Assembly: GCF_009834785.1 (NCBI RefSeq)
Contig: NZ_WUYX01000070.1
Coordinates: 21,622-85,621, forward strand
Length of the DNA stretch: 64,000 bases
Direction of reading: 5' to 3'
Origin: Natronorubrum halalkaliphilum
Lineage (GTDB): Archaea; Halobacteriota; Halobacteria; Halobacteriales; Natrialbaceae
A program made the translations under genes and the position numbers. The notes below the pieces were generated by a model. That model was not told the DNA's origin. It ran no database searches and saw only the letters and a program-made list of their open reading frames with translations. Positions 3,123 through 60,507 of this stretch are shown piece after piece (within the stretch, counting starts at the first letter, position 1; the number at the start of each line of letters is the position of its first letter).

Positions 3123-3611
3123 TCAGGTGTCGATCAGCGAGGCGATCCCCCTACGAACGATCGTCTCGCAGTACGCACAACGGACGCCATCGTCGAGCAC
3201 CTCGAACCGGGACACGACTGGCTCTCCTCCGGTCGTGATACAGCCCGGATTGGGACACGAGAGGACGCCCTCGACGGCACCGGGGCGTTCGACGCGGTGT
3301 TTCTCGATCACCTCGTAGTCGCGAACGATGTTGATCGTGGCGTCCGGCGCGATCAGCGAGAGCACGTCGACCTCGTCCTGACTGAGCTCCCGGCCCTCTA
3401 CCTTGACGATGTCCTTGCGCGCCAGGCGATCCGACGGAACGTTCATCCCGACCGAGACCTCCTCGCCGTCGCTCCCGTCGATGCCGAGAATTGCGAGGAC
3501 GTTCAGCGCCTGACCGCCCCGAACGTGGTCGATAACGGTCCCGCTGCGAATCTTGCTGACCCGCAACTCGTGGTCGTCGTGGCCGTCGTGGTGGTCGTGA
3601 TCGTCACTCAT
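3123..3611 (-). CDS. pyrI: Aspartate carbamoyltransferase regulatory subunit
   Basis: This is the regulatory chain of aspartate transcarbamylase, which binds nucleotide effectors and joins catalytic trimers into the holoenzyme of de novo pyrimidine synthesis. The 162-residue product has an unusual His/Asp-rich N-terminus ([15 protein letters not shown]) before the allosteric domain ([14 protein letters not shown]). It has the C-terminal zinc domain with four cysteines in the pattern CPNPGC ... CAYC. The start at 3611 is chosen because it overlaps the pyrB stop codon by 8 bases, indicating translational coupling in a pyrB-pyrI operon. The His-rich leader might bind metal, which is inference. 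Confidence 0.97.
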
Positions 3612-4539
3612 CGCGTTCACCCCCCGTCTCGCTGAGCAACAGATCGAGCAGCGCCATCCGCACCGGGACACCGTTGTGCGCCTGCTCGAAGTAGGCCGCG
3701 TGCTCCGTCTCGTCGATCGACGGCGCGATTTCGTCGACGCGCGGCAGGGGATGCATGATGGTCAACTCGTCGCTCGCGACCTCGAGCGTCTCGAGATCGA
3801 TCTGGTACTCGCCCGCGACTTTCTGATACTCGTTCTCGTCGGGGAACCGCTCGCGCTGAATCCGGGTCATATAGAGGACGTCCAGCGACGGCAGGACTTC
3901 CTCCAGCGAGTCGTGCTCGCGGACCTGTGCGCCGTCGCCCGCCTGATGCAGGTCGTAGACGACCTCGCGGGGCAACTGCAGACTCTCCGGGCTGATGAAA
4001 TGCTGGTGGGCGTCGAAGTTCGTCAGCGCGTAGGCCAGCGAGTGGACGGTCCGGCCGTACTTCAGGTCGCCCATGATCCCGATCGTCAGGTCGTCCAATC
4101 CGGCGTTTTCCCGAATCGTGTACAGATCGAGCAGCGTCTGAGTTGGATGGTGGCCCGCTCCGTCGCCGGCGTTCAACAGCGGCACGTCGACGAATTCGCT
4201 GGCCATCGTCGCCGCACCCTGTTTGGGGTGGCGCAAGACGAGTGCGTCGGCGTACCCCTCGATGACGCGGACGGTGTCCGCGAGCGTCTCGCCTTTCTTT
4301 ACGCTCGAGGATTCGACGGACCCCATGTCGACGACGTCGCCCCCGAGTCGTTTCATTGCAGCTTCGAAGCTCATCTTCGTCCGCGTGCTCGGCTCGAAAA
4401 AGAGGAGGCCGAGCAACGTGTTCGCGTGACGGTCGGCGACGGTCGACGGATCAGCGTCGATTTCGGCCGCCCGGTCGAGGACCGTTTCGATGTCCGCCCG
4501 CGAGAGTTGTTTGCTCGTGATGAGGTGATCGTGACGCAT
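3604..4539 (-). CDS. pyrB: Aspartate carbamoyltransferase catalytic subunit
   Basis: The enzyme transfers the carbamoyl group from carbamoyl phosphate to aspartate, the committed step of pyrimidine synthesis. The 311-residue protein starts MRHDHLITS at 4539; an upstream in-frame Met at 4626 would add 29 residues not typical of the family. The carbamoyl-phosphate loop STRTK is at residues 51-55, the HPTQ motif follows mid-protein, and HPLPRVDEI marks the aspartate domain. Length is normal for the family (about 300-310). The 3' end overlaps pyrI. The divergent gene at 4694 shares the 154-base upstream region. Confidence 0.97.
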
Positions 4540-4693
4540 TCGTTCGTGTTGGCTCTTGCCGGCCCCTTGAATCTCTCCATTCGCAGTCGACTGCGCTCCG
4601 CCCGACCCGATTCTCACGGACGACACTGGCCGACGAGACGTTGTATCGAAGCCAAAGAGTTATGCGGGCACTGGGGCAATTGAGCACAATTGT

Positions 4694-5320
4694 ATGGTCG
4701 GTCGGCTGGAAACCGGAATCGACGTGCTGGATCGGAAGCTCGACGGTGGGTTACCTCCGGGGTGTGTCGTCGCGTACACTGCCAAGCCAGCCAGCCAGTC
4801 GGAGCTGCTCCTGTACGAACTCACGGCCGCCCGCGGAACGCTGTACCTCTCGACCGAACGCTCGGCCGACGCCGTCACGCACGCGATCGAAAGCTCACCG
4901 TCCGCCGTCGGCAGTCCGACCGTTCGACACGTCACCAGCGACGACCCGCTCGAGGAAGCGACCCAACTCATCAGTGCCCTGCCCGACGGTGCCAACCTCA
5001 TCATCGACACGATGGACGTCCTGGAACGATCCGACACCGACGACTACGTCGAGTTTTGTAACGAACTCAAAACACACATGCTCGAGACCGGATCGATCGC
5101 AGTGTTACACTGTCTGAAGAGCGACGACGAACCCGCAAACCGCTCGCGGACGTTCCACGCGGCCGACGCCGTCTTCGATCTCCGGACCATGATCGCCGGC
5201 AGCGAACTCGAGAGTCACCTCACGATTCCCAAGTTCCGCGGCGGGAGTCAGCCGACCGAGGCGATCAAACTCGAACTGACGGAGGAAGTGGCGATCGATA
5301 CGAGTCGGGATATCGCTTGA
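4694..5320 (+). CDS. RecA/KaiC-like protein with degenerate Walker A
   Basis: This 208-residue protein has the layout of haloarchaeal RAD55/KaiC-like ATPases: an N-terminal GIDVLDRKLDGGLPPG, a Walker-B-like strand LIIDTMDVL near residues 100-108, and a FRGGSQPTEAIKLE region typical of the C-terminal part. However, the P-loop position reads AYTAKPASQSE instead of GxxGxGKS/T, so ATP binding in the usual way is unlikely. The core is therefore probably a regulatory or scaffolding pseudo-ATPase. It is divergent from pyrB. I do not recognise a more specific name. Confidence 0.75.
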   Translation: MVGRLETGIDVLDRKLDGGLPPGCVVAYTAKPASQSELLLYELTAARGTLYLSTERSADAVTHAIESSPSAVGSPTVRHVTSDDPLEEATQLISALPDGANLIIDTMDVLERSDTDDYVEFCNELKTHMLETGSIAVLHCLKSDDEPANRSRTFHAADAVFDLRTMIAGSELESHLTIPKFRGGSQPTEAIKLELTEEVAIDTSRDIA

Positions 5321-5431
5321 TCGTTTTGTCTCCTGGCTGCCTAATCGCCCGATATCCGCCGCCTGAAAACGCTGAACTCTCGAGCGGTGTGAGAAGAACC
5401 GATGGCTCGTTACATCGAACGCAGACGTCAA

Positions 5432-5941
5432 CTACTCGGATCGAACCTCGATCGAGCCGACCATGTCGTCTTCGTGGGCCTCACAGAGGTAGATCTCCAT
5501 CTCTTCGGTCGCTTCGACGGTGAGGGAGGTCGTTTCACCTTCCTCCTCGACAAAACTCGTCGCCTCGGCTGGGCCATCCTCGTCCCAGATTGCGAAGTTG
5601 TGATTACTGCCGTCCCTATTCGTCCAGAGAAACTCGTACTCCGATCCCTCGTAGAGTGCAATATCCGGGTTTTCGATATCCTCGATAACAGACGGTCTTC
5701 GACCGACCCAGCCGTCTTCGCTGGCGTCGAACTCGATCGTCTCGACGTCGTCCCACTCCTCGTCCCAGTCGTCTTCCGGCGGGTCGGCTTGCTCGTCCTC
5801 TTCCGACTCACGTTCGTCGTCGCGATCGGTTTCTCCCGGGTCACCGCCCCCTTCGGTACACCCTGCAAGGATCCCAGCAGCGGCCGCTACGCCGCCGATT
5901 CGAAGAAACGTCCGTCGTGAACGCGGATTCGGTCGTTTCAT
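5432..5941 (-). CDS. Tat lipoprotein, halocyanin-like blue copper protein
   Basis: The 169-residue product begins MKRPNPRSRRTFLRIGG, a twin-arginine signal, and has a lipobox ending in Cys28 (GILAGC). A 40-residue acidic linker rich in Asp/Glu leads to a cupredoxin domain with a plausible type 1 copper site: His114 (SNHNF), Cys153, His156 and Met160 (CEAHEDDM). It probably acts as a membrane-anchored one-electron carrier outside the cell. The ATG at 5941 is chosen over an in-frame Met 30 codons upstream because the Tat motif then sits at the N-terminus and a TATA box lies 23-30 bases before it. Confidence 0.85.
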   Translation of the reverse strand: MKRPNPRSRRTFLRIGGVAAAAGILAGCTEGGGDPGETDRDDERESEEDEQADPPEDDWDEEWDDVETIEFDASEDGWVGRRPSVIEDIENPDIALYEGSEYEFLWTNRDGSNHNFAIWDEDGPAEATSFVEEEGETTSLTVEATEEMEIYLCEAHEDDMVGSIEVRSE

Positions 5942-6253
5942 TGTACGGCGTAGGTGGCCGACGAAAATAAACGACTTGCGGACACTTGCGTGGCCGGTGG
6001 GAAACTCGGCCCGCCAGCGGAGAAATCGCACCCTCGACTACGGTTTCGACCGGCACGAACGCGGGCCGTTCCCGAACGGCTGCTACGGTTCCTGTCCGTC
6101 AGTACCGACGCACCGACAGCCGCCGTGGCTCACTGATCGATACAACAGTCCGTCTGACTCTCGCACAAAACGACGGTCGGCTCCACACCGACACCGTTCG
6201 GTGGCGGTTCCTGACAGTGTCGTTCGAAAAATTCGGCTCTCGGGCTGTGTCGC
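5942..6253. other. 312-base gene-free stretch
   Basis: This lies between the copper lipoprotein start and the FKBP gene end, both on the minus strand. Apart from the TATA box at 5964-5971 I see no coding frame with normal codon bias, no strong repeat and no tRNA. The ORFs crossing it are Arg/Ser-rich and look spurious. Confidence 0.6.
5964..5971 (-). promoter_or_regulatory. TATA box of the copper lipoprotein gene
   Basis: The minus strand reads TTTATTTT here, 23-30 bases before the ATG at 5941. That spacing implies a leaderless transcript, as is common in haloarchaea, and supports the chosen start. Confidence 0.55.
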
Positions 6254-7225
6254 TTACTCTTCGGCGCCTTCGAGTTCTTCGACGATCTCGTCGGCATCGA
6301 CGTCGGCGTCCTCGAGGGCCTCCTCGATGTCGCCGCCGCCCATACCGCCCATGCCGCCCATCATACCGCCCATACCCATGCCACCCATGCCGTCGATGAC
6401 TTCCTGGACGATGACGCGGTCGACGCCGACCTTCTCGATGACGTCCTGTCCGATCTGCTGTTTGCCCATCATCCACTGCTGATTCATCGTCATCTGGGGC
6501 GTGGCCTCGAGGTAGAGCGTCTCCTTCTCGACGGTCTCGGTCTCGAACTCCGGTTCGGCGGGTTCGTCGTCTTCGTCCTCGTCCTCGTCCTCATCAGGCT
6601 CGACGGGAACCTCCTCCTCGACTTCGTCCGTCTCGATCCAGAGGTCGGGCTCCATCCCGAGGTACATCTCGAACAGGCCGGACGCCTGCTGTTCGCGGTC
6701 CTCGACGGTGTCGGCGACCGTGTACTCGTACTCGACGTCCTCGCCGGCCAGCGGGTGGTTGAAGTCGACCCGCGCGCGGCCGCCGATGATGGTGCTGATG
6801 TAGCCCTGCTGGCCGTCGATCTGGACGTTCGCACCGGGGTAGCGGTCGTCCTCGTCGATTTTCTCGGCGCTGACGGTCTGGACGTCGTCAGGGTCGTACT
6901 CGCCGAAGGCGTCTTCGGCATCGATCGTTACGGTGCCGGAGTCGCCGGGCTCGCTGCCGACGATGGCCTCCTCGACGCCTTCGAAGATGTGGCCTTCGCC
7001 CAGGATGATCGTTCGCGGCTTGAACTCCTGGCCCTGGTCGTCGACGCCCTCTTCCTCGGCAACTTCGGGGTCGGTCGTGTCGACCAGCTGGTCGTCCTCG
7101 GCGGTGTATGCGGTGTACTCGATCTCGACGAAATCGCCGTGCTGCAGTCCGTCGGCGTTCTCGTCTCCTTCTGCGTCAACGTCATCGGCCTGCTCCTCGA
7201 GCTCGGCCTCCTGTTCCTCGGTCAT
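6254..7225 (-). CDS. slyD: Long FKBP-type peptidyl-prolyl isomerase with Met-Gly tail
   Basis: This 323-residue prolyl isomerase/chaperone begins MTEEQEAELEEQ; the frame extends upstream only as non-coding Arg/Ser-rich sequence. The FKBP domain (GDFVEIEYTAYTAEDDQLVDTT, split here by the family's normal insert, then NHPLAGEDVEYEY) is followed by a long archaeal C-terminal extension. This carries a poly-Asp/Glu linker near residues 205-225 and a beta domain (ETLYLEATPQMTMNQQWM). Near residues 280-298 is a Met/Gly repeat (MGGMGMGGMMGGMGGMGG) before an acidic end. The Met-Gly segment resembles the flexible GGM tails of GroEL and thermosomes. The slyD name is by family and less certain than the activity. 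Confidence 0.9.
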   Translation of the reverse strand: MTEEQEAELEEQADDVDAEGDENADGLQHGDFVEIEYTAYTAEDDQLVDTTDPEVAEEEGVDDQGQEFKPRTIILGEGHIFEGVEEAIVGSEPGDSGTVTIDAEDAFGEYDPDDVQTVSAEKIDEDDRYPGANVQIDGQQGYISTIIGGRARVDFNHPLAGEDVEYEYTVADTVEDREQQASGLFEMYLGMEPDLWIETDEVEEEVPVEPDEDEDEDEDDEPAEPEFETETVEKETLYLEATPQMTMNQQWMMGKQQIGQDVIEKVGVDRVIVQEVIDGMGGMGMGGMMGGMGGMGGGDIEEALEDADVDADEIVEELEGAEE

Positions 7226-7313
7226 ACGTTGTACGTCCCGCCGTCGACATTTAAGTACGACGCTTTGCGCCGAGAACGACCGATACTTACGGGCGCTCGC
7301 CGTTCCCCCGGCC

Positions 7314-7871
7314 ATGTACGAAGTCGAAGTGAAGGTGCCCGCGGCGCTCGAGGCCGTCCGTTCTCGACTCGAGGCCCTCGGCGCGGACCGAGAGGGGACT
7401 ATCGTGCAGGCGGACACGTACTACGACGCGCCCCACCGTTCGTTCGTCGACACCGACGAGGCGCTGCGGATCCGCCGCGAGTCGAATCCCGAGTCAGGGA
7501 CCGACGAGACCCGCATCACCTACAAGGGCCCGCTGCTCGACGACGAATCAAAGAGCCGCGAGGAGTTCGAAACGGCGGTCGGCGACGGCGAGACGATGGA
7601 CGCCGTCCTGACGCACCTCGGCTTCGAACCCGCCGCAACGGTTCGCAAGGAGCGGGAACGCTACGGCCTCGAGGGCGATGGCTATAGCTATACGGTCACG
7701 CTCGATTCGGTCGACGACGTCGGCGAGTACGTCGAGGTCGAAACGGACGTCGAACGCGAAGCCGACCTCGAGCCGGCTCGAGAAGGGGCGTACGACGTTC
7801 TCGAACGGCTCGAACTCGATCCAACCGAGCAGCTTCGAACCTCGTATCTGGGACTGTTACTCGAGTCTTGA
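7314..7871 (+). CDS. CYTH domain protein (class IV adenylate cyclase/CyaB-like)
   Basis: This 185-residue CYTH-fold protein begins MYEVEVKV with the hallmark ExExK signature at its N-terminus. Further charged strands typical of the triphosphate tunnel follow (ALRIRRES, RITYKGPLL, YVEVETD). CYTH proteins hydrolyse or cyclise nucleotide or inorganic triphosphates; archaeal CyaB-like members include adenylate cyclases and thiamine- or inorganic triphosphatases, so the substrate is open. The ATG at 7314 is preferred over ORF starts further upstream because homology begins exactly there. It is divergent from the FKBP gene with 88 bases between. Confidence 0.88.
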   Translation: MYEVEVKVPAALEAVRSRLEALGADREGTIVQADTYYDAPHRSFVDTDEALRIRRESNPESGTDETRITYKGPLLDDESKSREEFETAVGDGETMDAVLTHLGFEPAATVRKERERYGLEGDGYSYTVTLDSVDDVGEYVEVETDVEREADLEPAREGAYDVLERLELDPTEQLRTSYLGLLLES

Positions 7872-7930
7872 ACGCGGTGGCTGTCACGTATTACCACCAG
7901 GTATTTTTCGAACCCATCCTGTTTCCGCAA

Positions 7931-7939
7931 GTTATAGAA
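7931..7939 (+). promoter_or_regulatory. TATA box of methionine adenosyltransferase gene
   Basis: GTTATAGAA lies 24-32 bases before the ATG at 7963, the spacing expected for a leaderless haloarchaeal promoter. Confidence 0.55.
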
Positions 7940-7962
7940 CCACCGTCCGCCAATTCCCCCTA

Positions 7963-9168
7963 ATGAGTGAGCGGAACATCCGGGTCGAGCCCATCGACCG
8001 ACAGGCAGTAGAGGACCAGGAAGTCGAAATCGTTGAACGAAAGGGGATCGGCCACCCCGACTCGATCTGTGACGGAATCGCCGAGGCCGTTGCCGGCGCG
8101 CTGGCCCGGGAGTACCTCGATCGCGTGGGCGAAGTACTGCACTTCAACACCGACGAAACCCAACTCGTCGCGGGCGAAGCCGCGCCCGCCTTCGGCGGCG
8201 GCGAAGTCGTCGACCCGATCTATCTGCTGATCGTCGGCCGCGCGACCAAACACTACGAGGGCCAGACCATCCCCGCCGAGACCATCGCGTTGCGCGCCGC
8301 TCGCGAGTACCTCGAGGAGACGATTCCACAACTCACCTTCGGCGAGGATATCGTCGTCGACGTCAAACTCGGCGAAGGGAGCGGCGACCTCCAGGAAGTG
8401 TTCGGCGAGGACGAAGTGAGCGTCCCGATGGCCAACGACACGAGTTTCGGCGTCGGCCACGCGCCCCTGACCGAAACCGAGCAGATCGTCCTCGAGGCCG
8501 AGTCGCGGCTGAACGGCGAGTTTGCCGCGGAGAATCCCTACCTCGGATCGGACGTGAAGATCATGGGCAAACGCGAGGGTGACGAGATTGACGTGACCGT
8601 CGCGGCGGCGATGGTCGACGAGCACGTCGCGGATCTGGACGCCTACATCGACGCCGTCGAGTCGGTCCGCGAGTTCGTCGAGGAAGTTGCGAACGAACAC
8701 ACGGACCGCGCGGTCGACGTCCACGTCAACACGGCCGACAATTACGACGAGGGCTCGATCTATCTGACCGTCACCGGTACCTCCGCCGAGCAGGGCGACG
8801 ACGGCTCGGTCGGTCGCGGGAACCGTGCGAACGGGCTCATTACACCCAACCGCTCGATGTCGATGGAAGCCACCAGCGGGAAGAACCCGGTCAACCACAT
8901 CGGGAAGATCTACAACCTGCTCTCGACCGAAATCGCCGAGGAGGTCGTGGGCGAGGTCGACGGCATTCGCGACCTGCGCGTTCGCCTTCTCAGCCAGATC
9001 GGTCGGCCGATCGACCAGCCCCACGTCGCCGACGTCCACGTCGTCACCGAGGATGGCGTCGCGCTCGGCGACGTCAAAGAGGACGTCGAAGCGATCGTTG
9101 ACGAGGAACTCGCCGACGTCACCGGCATCACCCGCCGCGTGATCGACGGCGAACTGACGACGTTCTGA
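7963..9168 (+). CDS. mat: Archaeal S-adenosylmethionine synthetase
   Basis: The enzyme makes S-adenosylmethionine from ATP and methionine. This is the archaeal form, 401 residues, with the typical opening [21 protein letters not shown], the [12 protein letters not shown] segment and the nucleotide/phosphate-binding [14 protein letters not shown]. It ends [13 protein letters not shown] as haloarchaeal members do. The ATG at 7963 directly follows a well-spaced TATA box; the open frame upstream lacks homology. The product supplies methyl groups to, among others, the methyltransferase at 61426, and with folD and glyA it forms the one-carbon theme in the window. Confidence 0.97.
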
Positions 9169-54042: not shown

Positions 54043-54268
54043 GACGGACATACGGAAGCCGAACGACGTAGCTATCTTTAATCAGCGAAAGAATCCCACC
54101 GTTCACAGCGTCCTCAGAAATCAAAGACTTCTGGTGGGCATCGCAAACCTTCGATTTACTCAATGGGCGTGAATCGCGTCACTGGACGACGCAATCCACC
54201 GTCGGTGGCGGGCTGGATATTCCACGATCATCCATACTATTAAGTTGGTTTATCTACATAGGCTATGT

Positions 54269-55519
54269 ATGGCGATCGAGGTCACTCGCACCTACGTTGG
54301 TTCCATCCAGAACCAGCGGCAGGTCTGCGATGACCTGGATTTGCTCGGACACTCCGCCTCGAAGATCTGGAACGTCGCACGCTGGACAGCCGGTCGAATC
54401 TGGGATGAAGTCGGTGAAATCCCAGCCGAAGAGGTGCTGAAAGCGTATATGAAAAACCAATCGTGCTGGAAAGACCTGAACGCCCAATCCAGTCAGAAAG
54501 TCATCGAAGAACTTTCTGACGCTTTCCAGTCGTGGTTTGATCTGCGACAGAACAACGAGACGGCGAATCCGCCCGGCTACCGCAAACACGATGACGAACG
54601 GCCGCGCAGTACGATCACATTTAAAGTAGACGGGTTCAAACACGACCCCGCCAACAACCGCGTCCGACTCTCAAAAGGTTCAAACCTCAAAGAGAATTGG
54701 TCGGACTTCATCCTCTGTGAGTACCAGACGCGCCCGGACGTTGACCTCTCGGAGGTCAACCGAGTGCAGAACGTCCGCGCCGTCTGGAACGGCGACGAGT
54801 GGGAACTGCACTTCGTCTGCAAAGTCGAACTCGAAACCAACGACTCCGCAGGTGATGAAGTGGCAGGAATCGACCTTGGCATTAAGAACACCGCCACGGT
54901 CGCATTCCCCAACGAGTACGTCCTGTACCCCGGCAACTCGCTCAAACAGAACAAGCACTACTTCACTCGGGCAGAGTACGACACCGAAGGTGAGAACGGG
55001 CCATCAGAAAAGTCGATGTGGGCGCGTCGAAAACTTGCAGACCGCGAGACACACTTCTACCACGTTCTCACGGACACCATCATTACCGAATGCGTTGAAC
55101 GCGGTGTTGGAACGGTGGCAGTGAGTTGGCCTGAAGACGTGCGTGACTCGGACTGGGGCAAGACCGGTAACAAGAAACTCCATACGTGGGCATTCGATCG
55201 TATCTACCAGTACCTCGCGTACAAAGGCGAGATACGTGGCGTCGAGGTACTGAAAGAAAACGAGTGGGATACCTCGAAGACGTGTTCGGCGTGTGGCGAC
55301 GACACGACGTCGAACCGCGTCGAACGTGGCTTGTACGTCTGCTCATCGTGCGAGTTGGTGGCCAATGCGGACTGTAACGGGGCGGAGAATATGCGACAGA
55401 AGATAACTCCGAGTCCTCACGGCGAGGATAGGAGTAACGGCTGTGTGGCACAGCCATCGGTACACCTGTTCGACCGCGAGAGCGGGACGTTCCGCACGAG
55501 AGAACAGGTCGTGTCGTAG
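54269..55519 (+). CDS. tnpB: TnpB, RNA-guided nuclease of IS200/IS605 group
   Basis: This 416-residue TnpB has the complete RuvC triad: Asp202 (AGIDLGIKNT), Glu289 (SWPEDV) and Asp368 (NADCNG). It also has the zinc finger pairs CSACG and CSSCE, so it is probably an active nuclease guided by the RNA made from the element's right end. In such elements TnpB cuts at sites matching the guide to keep the transposon. ATG at 54269 follows a TATA-like ATTAAG at about 54239-54245; the Met at 54245 is less likely. Codon use is less GC-biased than the neighbours, consistent with transfer. Confidence 0.93.
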   Translation: MAIEVTRTYVGSIQNQRQVCDDLDLLGHSASKIWNVARWTAGRIWDEVGEIPAEEVLKAYMKNQSCWKDLNAQSSQKVIEELSDAFQSWFDLRQNNETANPPGYRKHDDERPRSTITFKVDGFKHDPANNRVRLSKGSNLKENWSDFILCEYQTRPDVDLSEVNRVQNVRAVWNGDEWELHFVCKVELETNDSAGDEVAGIDLGIKNTATVAFPNEYVLYPGNSLKQNKHYFTRAEYDTEGENGPSEKSMWARRKLADRETHFYHVLTDTIITECVERGVGTVAVSWPEDVRDSDWGKTGNKKLHTWAFDRIYQYLAYKGEIRGVEVLKENEWDTSKTCSACGDDTTSNRVERGLYVCSSCELVANADCNGAENMRQKITPSPHGEDRSNGCVAQPSVHLFDRESGTFRTREQVVS

Positions 55520-55577: not shown

Positions 55578-56825
55578 TCACTCGTACAGCGGGTTCGCGT
55601 CACACAGCGACTCGACTTCCTCGCGGACGTCCTCGAGGACATCATTGTCCTCCGGCGCGTCGATGACCTGAGTGATTAGATCGGCGACTTTTCGGCAGTC
55701 GTCCTCGTCGAAGCCGCGGGTGGTCAGCGCGGGCGTCCCGGCGCGGATGCCCGAGGGATCGAACGCCGAACGCGTCTCGCCGGGGACGGTGTTGCCGTTG
55801 AGAACGATGCCTGCGTCCTCGAGGGCTTCTTCGGCGTCGCCCCCCGACGTCTCGGGGTGGCTCTCGCGCAGGTCGACGAGCACGAGGTGGTTGTCAGTGC
55901 CGTCCGAGACCAGCGAGAAGCCGTTGTCGACGAGGCTCTCGCCGAGCGCCTTCGCGTTCGCGACCGTCTGGGAGGCGTAGTCTTCGAACTCCGGCTGGAG
56001 CGCCTCCTTGAAGCCGACGGCCTTGCCGGCGACGTTGTGCATGAGTGGACCGCCCTGCCCGCCGGGGAACACCGCCGAGTCGACGTCGTCGGCGTACTCC
56101 TCGTCGCACATGACGATCCCACCGCGGCCGGAGCGGATCGTCTTGTGGGTCGACCCCGTGACGAAGTCGGCCGTGCCGACCGGCGACGAGTGAACGCCCG
56201 CGGCCACGAGACCGGTGATGTGAGCGATGTCCGCGAGGTGGAGCGCGTCGACGCTGTCGGCGGCCTCCTGAATGCGCTCCCACTCGATTTCGCGCGGGTA
56301 CGCGGAGTAGCCCGAGACGATGATGTCGGGTTCGAACGCTTCGGCGTGCTCTGCCAGCCCCTCGTAGTCGAGATACCCCGTCTCGGGGTCGACCTCGTAC
56401 TGTTCGACGTCGTACAGTTGGCCGACGAAGTTCGCCGGGTGGCCGTGGCTCAGGTGACCGCCGTGGGTCAGATCCAGCGAGAGGATCTTGTCGCCGGGCT
56501 CTAACATCGCGAAGTAGACGGCCTGGTTGGCCTGCGTGCCCGAGTGTGGCTGGACGTTGACGTGCTCGGCACCGAACAGCTCCGTCGCGCGTTCGATCGC
56601 GAGGTTTTCGACCTCGTCGGCGTACTCGCAGCCGCCGTAGTACCGCGAGCCGGGATACCCCTCGGCGTACTTGTTCGTCAGGGCGCTTCCCTGCGCGTCG
56701 ATGACCGCCTGGCTGACGTGGTTCTCGCTCGCGATCATCTGCAGCGAGTTTCGCTGGCGATCGACCTCTCCCTCGAGTGCATCGGCGACGGCGGGATCGA
56801 CGTCCCGGACCTGCTCGTGTTCCAT
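55578..56825 (-). CDS. glyA: Serine hydroxymethyltransferase
   Basis: The enzyme converts serine and tetrahydrofolate to glycine and methylenetetrahydrofolate. The 415-residue PLP protein starts MEHEQVRDVDPAVADALEGE and has NVQPHSGTQANQAVYFA, LADIAHITGLVAAGVH and the PLP lysine in GSTHKTIRSGRGG. Two earlier in-frame Met codons precede a Cys/Pro leader and are not used. The stop codon lies 6 bases from the TnpB hairpin, so the mobile element inserted almost exactly at the 3' end. Its product supports folD, thyA and purD. Confidence 0.96.
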   Translation of the reverse strand: MEHEQVRDVDPAVADALEGEVDRQRNSLQMIASENHVSQAVIDAQGSALTNKYAEGYPGSRYYGGCEYADEVENLAIERATELFGAEHVNVQPHSGTQANQAVYFAMLEPGDKILSLDLTHGGHLSHGHPANFVGQLYDVEQYEVDPETGYLDYEGLAEHAEAFEPDIIVSGYSAYPREIEWERIQEAADSVDALHLADIAHITGLVAAGVHSSPVGTADFVTGSTHKTIRSGRGGIVMCDEEYADDVDSAVFPGGQGGPLMHNVAGKAVGFKEALQPEFEDYASQTVANAKALGESLVDNGFSLVSDGTDNHLVLVDLRESHPETSGGDAEEALEDAGIVLNGNTVPGETRSAFDPSGIRAGTPALTTRGFDEDDCRKVADLITQVIDAPEDNDVLEDVREEVESLCDANPLYE

Positions 56826-57089
56826 ATCCGATGTGCAGTTTGGCGGCTGCATAAGTGTACCCGTCTTCGGCAAGTGGAGCCACTACCCTCCGTCTTCGAG
56901 ACCGTACGAACGAGTCGGGTCGGCTCTCCACGCTGGTGGTGTCCGGTGCTGTTGTGTTGACCGGAAGAGCTACCGTGGTGCGCCGGGACCAGCAACTATG
57001 ACCGGTTTGGTTCCCAACACGCCGGACTCACAGTCGTTCGCTGCCCACCCGATACAACTAACTTTCCGGAGTGACATTCAGCGTACCGA

Positions 57090-59195
57090 ATGATCGAGTG
57101 GGCGGCGGACGACGGCGCGCTCCGTGTCACCGACGCTGACAACACCGAGTTGTCGGTCCGCGGTGCCGATCTCGTCGTCGGCGGACCGGGGCCGGACATC
57201 CAACGACCAGTCGACGAAACGGTCGTCGCAACGGCTAACGAACTCCGCTTTCCCCACGCGGTCGTCTACGCGTTCTCGCTCGGATCGGGCGAGCAACACG
57301 AACTCGACCTGGGCGGCTCCCCGCTCTCGCTGTCCCCCGGCGAGTACATCGTCGATATCGACACCGACATCAAGACCTATCTTCGGTTTTCCGGCACTGC
57401 GACTATCGAGAAGACCGACGGCTACGACACGATCACCGTCTCCTTTCCCGATCGCACTCGCGTCCTCCTCGGCTTCCGGAGCCACCACGAACTTCCGGCG
57501 GGGACGATCACCGTCCCGGATTCGCCGGAGGCCATCGCAACGGCGATCAGCCACCTCTCGGCATCCCAGAAGACGGATAGTCCGGATCGCACCTACCCCT
57601 CCCTCCGGGGCCATCCGTCGCTTCTCGAGTCCGGCGACGACCTCGAGATTCCCGACTGCATCCGGGAGGATACCGCCGATACCGGCATCGAGGTGGTCGT
57701 CCCGCCGGACTACGAATCGCTGTTCGTCGCCGCGCCGCTTGCGTACTACCTGCAGGCGACGCTTCGGACCTGCGGACGCCGTCGAACCGGTCCCGATCGG
57801 CCGCAGCTTCGGCTCCCTGAACGCGGGGTCGAGGAACAGCTCTCGCCGATGCCCGAACTCGAACACGACGTCGAGCAGTTGTTGCGCAAAACGTACTTCC
57901 TCGACTGTCTCGTCCGCAACGTGGGCCCCCACGGGACGAACCTGGCCGAACTGAACGTGCTCGATGCGCTCGAACTCGACGCCGACGCCCTCTACGATGC
58001 CAGCCCCGAACGGCGTCTCGCGACCTATCTCGAGGTGCCGTACACGGCGATCGAACACCGACTCCCCGACTGGCATCTCTCGACGTACGTCGCGCCGGAG
58101 TACGAGAGCGTCGAGACCCTCCCGTTCCTGCTCGATCGGATGAGCATGATCTACATGCCCCGGACGTCCGAACTCGAGGGCAAGGAGCTGGTCGAGCGCT
58201 CTCTGGAGGACTTTTATCGCGGTGTGGGCGACGAAAACGGTGCCGCGAGCAGAGCCAGCGCCGGCCGGGTCGCCTCGGTGGATATCGTCAAACCCGAACT
58301 CCGAAACGGCCGAGTCCACGGCTGGCTCGCCGACGGCGTGCCGATCGACGTCTTCAAGTCCACGCCGGAGGCCTACCACAACCGACTCGACTATCTCGAA
58401 CGCTCGAGCGATTCGACGTCGATCTGCGTCGTCCTGAACGACCCCGAGATGGCGGGCGAACACGACGACGTCGCCGAAATCTATCGTCAACGCTCCGAGG
58501 ACCTCTCGATGGACGTGACAGTCGGCGAGTCACTCACGACGGCCGATCTGGCACGCGTTTTCGAAGGCGAGTACGACTTCGTCCACTACATCGGCCACTG
58601 TGAGACCGACGGACTCCGCTGTCCGGACGGCTACCTCTCGGCCGCAAACCTCGATCAGTGTAACAGCCAGACGTTCTTCCTCAACGCCTGTGGCTCCTAC
58701 TACGAGGGGATGGGACTGATCGAAAAGGGGAGCGTCGCCGGCGCAGTGACGGTGACCAAGGTACTGAACGACCACGCCGTCAAGGTCGGCTCGACGTTCG
58801 CCAAACTCCTCGTCCACGGGTTCAGCCTCGAGCGGGCACTGGGGCTCGCACGGCGGCGTATCATGATGGGGAAAGACTACGCGGTCGTCGGCGACGGGAC
58901 CCACTCGCTTACGCAGGGCGAACAGCGGTTTCCGATCACCATTACGCTCGAGGAACTCGAGGAGGGGCCGGGCGACTATCTGGTGGAGTTAGACTGTTAT
59001 TCGACGCGTATGAACGGCTCGTACTATTTCCCCCACACGGAGGACAACGAGTACGCCTATCTCTGTGGCACCGAATCGAGTTTCACGCTTACAGAGTCCG
59101 GCCTCGTCACGCTGCTCGAGGAGGTCGAGGGCTCGGTTATCTACGACGGGGACCTCTACTGGTCGACGGGATTATCGCGGCAGTTTAAACGGTGA
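57090..59195 (+). CDS. CHAT-domain (caspase-like) protease
   Basis: This encodes 701 residues. The C-terminal part is a CHAT-type caspase-like peptidase: VHYIGHC gives catalytic His503 and TFFLNACGSYYEGMG gives catalytic Cys534, followed by GAVTVTKVLND and the helix SLERALGLARRRIM. The N-terminal 170 residues are beta-rich (LVVGGPGP, GEYIVDIDTDI), and the middle is an alpha/beta region of unknown type (PDYESLFVAAPLAYYL) that may be the sensor. A short beta domain follows the protease (YLVELDCYSTR). CHAT proteases act in prokaryotic defence and cell-fate systems, but no known partner is adjacent. It is divergent from glyA. Confidence 0.85.
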   Translation: MIEWAADDGALRVTDADNTELSVRGADLVVGGPGPDIQRPVDETVVATANELRFPHAVVYAFSLGSGEQHELDLGGSPLSLSPGEYIVDIDTDIKTYLRFSGTATIEKTDGYDTITVSFPDRTRVLLGFRSHHELPAGTITVPDSPEAIATAISHLSASQKTDSPDRTYPSLRGHPSLLESGDDLEIPDCIREDTADTGIEVVVPPDYESLFVAAPLAYYLQATLRTCGRRRTGPDRPQLRLPERGVEEQLSPMPELEHDVEQLLRKTYFLDCLVRNVGPHGTNLAELNVLDALELDADALYDASPERRLATYLEVPYTAIEHRLPDWHLSTYVAPEYESVETLPFLLDRMSMIYMPRTSELEGKELVERSLEDFYRGVGDENGAASRASAGRVASVDIVKPELRNGRVHGWLADGVPIDVFKSTPEAYHNRLDYLERSSDSTSICVVLNDPEMAGEHDDVAEIYRQRSEDLSMDVTVGESLTTADLARVFEGEYDFVHYIGHCETDGLRCPDGYLSAANLDQCNSQTFFLNACGSYYEGMGLIEKGSVAGAVTVTKVLNDHAVKVGSTFAKLLVHGFSLERALGLARRRIMMGKDYAVVGDGTHSLTQGEQRFPITITLEELEEGPGDYLVELDCYSTRMNGSYYFPHTEDNEYAYLCGTESSFTLTESGLVTLLEEVEGSVIYDGDLYWSTGLSRQFKR

Positions 59196-59688: not shown

Positions 59689-60507
59689 ATGACCTCGAAT
59701 TTACTCAACCACCAGATTGACGATATCCTCGAATCCATTCTCGAGGATGCGAGCGGGGACGTCTACATGGTCAACCCATCGGCAGACGCCATCGAAGAGT
59801 TCGTGTCCGTTGCGACCGCGTTCGATGGCTCGCTCCCGTCGGTACACATGCTCGCCGACGAGCGAACGCTGAAAGACGTCATGGACGATTTCATCGTCGC
59901 CTCGAACGCCGCTGACCTCATCAGTCAGGACGCACTCGCGCTGCGAACGCTCGAGGAGGCACCCGAGAACTCGCTGCTGATCACCGAAGACCGCGTCATC
60001 GCCGTCGTCCACGCCGGCGACCGCGTCGGCGGCCTGGTCACCGACGACGAAAGCTTCGTCGACGACACCTACGACACCTACGAGGCGCGCTGGGCGGACT
60101 CCTCGCAGTTCAACCTTCGAACCCCGCCGATTACGGACGTCCGCGAGACGCTCGCCGACGAGATCAGTCCCGACGCCGAAGCGGACTTCACGGCGATCCT
60201 CAACTCGCTCGAGACCGCTCGCGGCGACGGAGACGGACTCGACGAGGTCACGATTTCGCTGCTCGTCGCGGCCAAGAACGAGGCCCTGCTGTACGACATC
60301 AGCAAGTGGGGCGAGGACGTCGGCATCGCCTCCAAGGCGACCTTTAGCCGAACCAAGACCAAGCTCGAAGACATGGGCCTGATCGACACCGAGAAGGTTC
60401 CGATCGACGTCGGTCGCCCGCGTCTGCGCCTGAAGATCGGCGACGAGCGACTCAGCGAGGCCGACAACGGCCAGCTCGCCACGGTGGCCCAGTCGATCCT
60501 CAACTAA
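59689..60507 (+). CDS. tbsP: TbsP family transcriptional regulator
   Basis: This 272-residue haloarchaeal regulator belongs to the DUF5821 family, which I know as TbsP. In Haloferax volcanii TbsP works with TrmB on the glycolytic/gluconeogenic switch and cell development. The N-terminal part is an alpha/beta domain (LLNHQIDDILESILEDASG, VHMLADERTLKDVMDDF). The C-terminal winged helix (VGIASKATFSRTKTKLEDMGLIDTEKV) binds DNA. The nearest plus-strand TATA-like element, AAAATTAAG at about 59650, gives a short leader. Its gene lies between the CHAT/small-ORF locus and the RNase P cluster. Confidence 0.85.
   Translation: MTSNLLNHQIDDILESILEDASGDVYMVNPSADAIEEFVSVATAFDGSLPSVHMLADERTLKDVMDDFIVASNAADLISQDALALRTLEEAPENSLLITEDRVIAVVHAGDRVGGLVTDDESFVDDTYDTYEARWADSSQFNLRTPPITDVRETLADEISPDAEADFTAILNSLETARGDGDGLDEVTISLLVAAKNEALLYDISKWGEDVGIASKATFSRTKTKLEDMGLIDTEKVPIDVGRPRLRLKIGDERLSEADNGQLATVAQSILN

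Follow-up and report, generated by a model that had tools for sequence, protein, structure and literature searches.

Gene and domain organisation

Is the CHAT-type protein encoded at 57090-59195 (+) an effector of defence or cell death, as the sequence-only reading relates of bacterial proteases of this class, or does it serve the ordinary life of the haloarchaeal cell? The window, which is the whole stretch of 64,000 nucleotides that was analysed, contains the gene as a real open reading frame with an ATG start and 701 amino acids, as seen in the window letters and the list of open reading frames. The coordinates, the strand and the length that had been given for it are exact. The open reading frame, the relatives in Halobacteriales, the structural model and the fold matches place it in clade A of a haloarchaeal family of CHAT-type cysteine peptidase genes. 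The AlphaFold2 model, computed from 51 relatives, has a mean pLDDT of 83.8 and a pTM of 0.81, and its sole long low-confidence stretch is residues 361-399. The last part of the protein, residues 612-701 (58923-59192, +), is an unassigned C-terminal alpha/beta module according to the model and the conservation in the family.

Catalytic domain

The model contains a caspase/CHAT fold at residues about 326-611. The top Foldseek rows are SAVED-CHAT (E 1.5e-7), gingipain RgpB (4.5e-6), and separase (1.5e-5). In VIA-align, SAVED-CHAT (PDB 8tl0) aligns with Z 17.6 and an rmsd of 2.4 over 168 residues, corresponding to model residues 440-608, and gingipain RgpB reaches the same Z of 17.6 over 242 residues (model 328-610). 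Separase follows with Z 16.3-16.7 in alignments that run from model residue 203/207 to 611, then Csx29 with Z 13.3, and caspases with Z about 11.5, caspase-4 and caspase-7 being among the structural matches. The SAVED-CHAT alignment and the conservation delimit the catalytic CHAT domain to residues 440-611 (58407-58922, +), which the family alignment shows to be conserved more strongly than any other part. As modelled, this domain has the clan CD (caspase-haemoglobinase) fold of the CHAT peptidases (PF12770).

The family alignments identify His503 (58596-58598, +) as the predicted catalytic histidine and Cys534 (58689-58691, +) as the predicted nucleophile. His503 is found within YIGHC and belongs to an HxxxH motif, and Cys534 is found within LNACGS and belongs to an NAC motif, both motifs being of the CHAT type. 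The AlphaFold2 secondary structure has His503 directly after strand 497-501 and Cys534 directly after strand 528-532, which is, in the model, the usual clan CD arrangement. Both residues are unchanged in all 90 close relatives of the first alignment, a set of clade A and the two paralogues of the window genome in which some rows are near-duplicates. A second alignment, also of 90 rows, comprises clade A, the paralogous clade, and four distant relatives, with 86 haloarchaeal rows, and here each of the two residues is kept in 89 of 90. Chance conservation is therefore excluded. The dyad read from the sequence alone is confirmed by these counts, the feared loss of the histidine or cysteine in most homologues is not seen, and the assignment of the catalytic domain to the CHAT class is upheld by the fold matches together with the strictly conserved dyad.

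Several other residues are conserved to the same degree. The invariant columns of the 86 haloarchaeal rows include H499, H503, C511, N532, C534, and S536. Cys511 (58620-58622, +) is invariant in the family alignments, with 90 of 90 rows including the dyad-less relative L170; it may serve in metal binding, in a disulphide or in the structure. P170 and R173, which belong to the family signature RTYPSLRGHPS at residues 167-177 (57588-57620, +), are likewise invariant (90/90). The conservation of Cys511, P170, and R173, which equals or exceeds that of the dyad, counts against the explanation preferred below, as does the one distant relative without both catalytic residues. This relative, L170 (9043-11100, -), is the sole dyad loss in the wider set; it comes from outside Halobacteriales, keeps C511 and S536, and is, from its sequence, possibly a natural pseudo-enzyme.

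The Pfam CHAT model misses most family members. It finds nothing in the whole window genome and matches 17 of the 51 family members weakly, with E up to 1; the best score is that of L095, the only member above the gathering cut-off (25.0 bits vs 24). The window protein has no match in Pfam or NCBIfam, which also counts against the preferred explanation, and a sequence profile compared with PDB chains gives a chance-level match alone (E 0.75). In the NCBI annotation, two plasmid members are named 'caspase family protein' and 'CHAT domain-containing protein'.

N-terminal region

Residues 1-200 folded alone form a beta-sandwich at residues 1-135 (57090-57494, +) with a mean pLDDT of 87.4. Foldseek with this isolated model yields no match below 1e-3, and VIA-align gives a best Z of 8.3 and no confident known fold. 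The best rows are super-sandwiches of the galactose-mutarotase-like kind from glycoside hydrolases, and YidC; their Z values of 8.3 and below are what this tool usually gives when there is no clear match. No carbohydrate function is therefore assigned. In the four relatives from other archaea than Halobacteriales, the N-terminal beta domain is missing or cannot be recognised, and it looks like a haloarchaeal feature because their matches to the profile extend solely from about 79-140 to 607-628.

The model and the structural alignments define an alpha/beta region at residues 195-360 (57672-58169, +). Alignments with separase start at model residues 203-207 and those with gingipain at 326-328. 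These ranges suggest that residues 195-360 and 400-611 probably make up a two-part unit as in separases and gingipains, in which part of residues 195-360 is probably the non-catalytic half. A linker of low confidence at residues 361-399 (58170-58286, +) precedes the catalytic domain, and its length varies from 26 to 94 aa across the family.

The sequence-only reading counted about 500 N-terminal residues as unassignable. This holds for Pfam, which recognises nothing there, and does not hold for the stretch from about 203 or 326 to 440, which aligns with separase and gingipain outside their catalytic parts; the truly unassigned part is thus about residues 1-195. The further suggestion that the protease is a switch carrying its own sensor is plausible as a putative role, and the architecture allows it.

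Distribution and genomic locus

A relative is present in 268 of 293 Halobacteriales genomes. In a sample of 393 genomes from the phylum, the family occurs in Halobacteriales and one other family only, presumably Methanocellaceae (f25), where 4 of 4 genomes have relatives. The phage records and viral contigs searched contain no relative. The gene is distributed like a core gene and not like an accessory one, and prokaryotic CHAT proteases have mostly been discussed as defence effectors. Clade A is one supported group in the tree and has the fixed housekeeping order folD-glyA-[CHAT]-tbsP, and these two features point to vertical inheritance. The catalytic class is already known. In the open-licence literature, a family with its own N-terminal architecture, a fixed housekeeping locus, and near-universal presence in one archaeal order was not found described.

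The neighbour tables cover 71 clade A loci, with glyA near the gene in 69, tbsP in 67, and folD in 60. In the window, glyA (serine hydroxymethyltransferase) is the conserved divergent neighbour at 55578-56873 (-), and the tbsP transcriptional regulator is the conserved downstream neighbour at 59689-60507 (+). Across clade A, glyA is divergent from the CHAT gene and mostly 55-253 bp apart, and tbsP follows on the strand of the CHAT gene after a gap of 156-848 bp. An operon with tbsP was rejected for these gaps. Because of the orientation of glyA and the distance of tbsP, both look like syntenic neighbours and not operon partners, and they are given here as genomic context. The recurring partner that had been hoped for is thus absent for clade A, and a recurring candidate, DUF7504, is found in the paralogous clade B.

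The earlier remark that there is no TPR, gasdermin, or CRISPR partner fits the window locus, where a lone TnpB gene is the sole CRISPR-like gene near. PADLOC assigns no family to the window protein, a clade B member, DUF7504, tbsP, or glyA, and its match at the locus is to the separate TnpB gene only, with Cas12f-type models. A link with defence or cell death is not supported, as the gene is near-universal, has a fixed housekeeping locus, and lacks a PADLOC match, its neighbours glyA and tbsP included.

The TnpB gene (RNA-guided nuclease family) is found at 54245-55519 (+), with an MFS gene on one side and glyA on the other. The list of open reading frames from 80 aa up shows no recognisable TnpA next to it, and a TnpB match is nearby in just 1 of 71 other clade A loci.

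Clade B paralogues

The window genome has two further copies on contig C68, which belong to clade B and are about 35% identical. More clade B paralogues are found on large plasmids and megaplasmids (25 records). In the genus inferred to be Haloferax, 15 of 15 clade B loci have a DUF7504 gene (PF24336) no more than 2.5 kb from the CHAT gene, and of the other non-redundant loci 16 of 52 do. Frequently the DUF7504 gene is upstream of the CHAT gene and on its strand, at a distance of 48-146 bp. This association is suggestive of a candidate partner, the figures being raw counts of co-occurrence. HalX-domain genes also recur at clade B loci.

The C68 pair (48000-76000 of that contig; L106, L107) has aEF-2/DUF5781 on one side and rps7-rps12-nusA-rpoA'' on the other; a DUF7504 gene precedes the first copy, and a HalX-type gene lies between both copies. 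The DUF5781 protein near the pair (L106, 9660-10538, +) has a HEFAH (HExxH) motif and a weak Peptidase_M78 match, and may therefore be a metalloprotease. At another group of loci (L163, at 3270-8971, and L200, L209, L210, L213, and L214), the clade B gene comes after genes like those of anaerobic glycerol-3-phosphate dehydrogenase, consisting of FAD oxidoreductases and a CCG/Fer4 protein.

All 15 genomes of one genus have exactly one family member each, which belongs to clade B and has an intact dyad. The PCNA of these genomes is 95-100% identical to PDB 3hi8/3ifv, which we take to be the PCNA of H. volcanii, and that of genome G605 is 100% identical; from this likeness we infer that the genus is Haloferax. 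TbsP and TrmB both regulate sugar metabolism, and a TrmB gene is near the Haloferax copy, which suggested a link through TrmB; this was rejected because TrmB was found at Haloferax loci only. Two locus tags for the Haloferax gene were also rejected. HVO_2690 belongs to the tsg transport operon, and the neighbours reported for HVO_2248, namely ura2, apt3, and tif2b2 (PMC7824242), are not recognised at the Haloferax locus.

Function and alternative explanations

The dyad kept over a wide range, the fold, and the distribution as a core gene favour the prediction that the peptidase is active, in housekeeping or under stress. A housekeeping or stress cysteine protease is the best reading, and not a mobile defence system. 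With somewhat better than even confidence, the protein is predicted to be a cysteine endopeptidase of clan CD, from the CHAT/separase/caspase superfamily, that belongs to the haloarchaeal core and is inherited vertically. Its computed architecture comprises a beta-sandwich, a second alpha/beta region, a variable linker, and a caspase-type domain with the invariant His503/Cys534. Such a protein would be made as a folded, largely inactive enzyme, whose active site would be restrained or oriented by the N-terminal region or the linker, in the manner of separase and TPR-CHAT. The restraint would be lifted by a housekeeping or stress signal, and the released enzyme would cut one or a few specific proteins. 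Clade B, the single Haloferax copy included, would follow the same scheme, with the DUF7504 protein as the likely input partner.

A sharper form of this explanation, which does not exclude it, concerns an orphan enzymatic activity. H. volcanii has a high and specific caspase-like activity that is tied to salt stress and for which the protein was not identified (PMC3615174). Haloferax is genetically tractable and has a single family member per genome, and this clade B gene, whose dyad is intact in each of the 15 genomes, is a natural candidate for the activity, as a hypothesis; caspase-4 and caspase-7 among the structural matches are consistent with it. The family, as clade B in Haloferax and perhaps as clade A elsewhere, could then be the source of the basal caspase-like activity of haloarchaea, acting as a housekeeping and salt-stress protease of caspase-like specificity. 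This is a tentative proposal and rather unlikely. Caspase-like activity is reported too in Pyrococcus furiosus and Sulfolobus solfataricus, both outside the phylum covered by the search. Within that phylum the family was found in Halobacteriales and one other family only, and the same paper raises the proteasome as a possible source (PMC3615174). That an ancient, near-universal protease both acts as a housekeeping switch under an N-terminal regulatory domain of its own and accounts for the orphan activity in Haloferax is, taken as a whole, unlikely. If true, it would mean that a caspase-like protease is at work in the constitutive physiology of archaea, and not in defence or cell death.

A caspase-fold protein that serves binding or regulation instead of proteolysis would agree with the invariance of P170, R173, C511, and S536 outside the dyad, and with L170, where C511 and S536 outlast the catalytic pair. 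However, across the wider set His503 and Cys534 do not vary in any of the 86 haloarchaeal sequences. A protein with no catalytic use for them would not be expected to keep both so strictly, and this counts against such a use, making it quite improbable.

An infection-triggered antiviral or programmed-cell-death protease like Craspase or SAVED-CHAT is very improbable: among solved structures the CRISPR-linked SAVED-CHAT has the closest fold and several clade B paralogues are on megaplasmids, but the lack of a PADLOC match, the lack of homologues in phages and viral contigs, and the near-universal gene at a fixed locus with housekeeping neighbours make it the weaker reading, even if location alone leaves room for a cell-death role.

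Comparison with known systems

SAVED-CHAT: The CHAT catalytic fold is shared with PDB 8tl0, at 17% identity over the aligned part. In contrast, the fold search with residues 1-200 recognised no SAVED domain in the N-terminus, and no CRISPR type III genes are seen beside the window gene.

TPR-CHAT/Csx29 (Craspase): The window protein has the same CHAT protease fold (Z about 13). It differs in that Pfam recognises no TPR in it and there is no gRAMP/Csx30 beside the gene.

Gingipains: Gingipain R/K (Peptidase C25) shares the caspase-like unit, with about 10% identity. Gingipains differ in being secreted Arg/Lys proteases.

Separase: The separases ctSPD and human separase align with the window protein over the second alpha/beta region as well as over the catalytic domain that follows it. 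Their long helical N-terminal scaffold is missing from the window model, and the identity is about 10-14%. Separase is a housekeeping rather than a defence protease, as is proposed by analogy for the window protein, and the family may be an archaeal housekeeping counterpart of separase.
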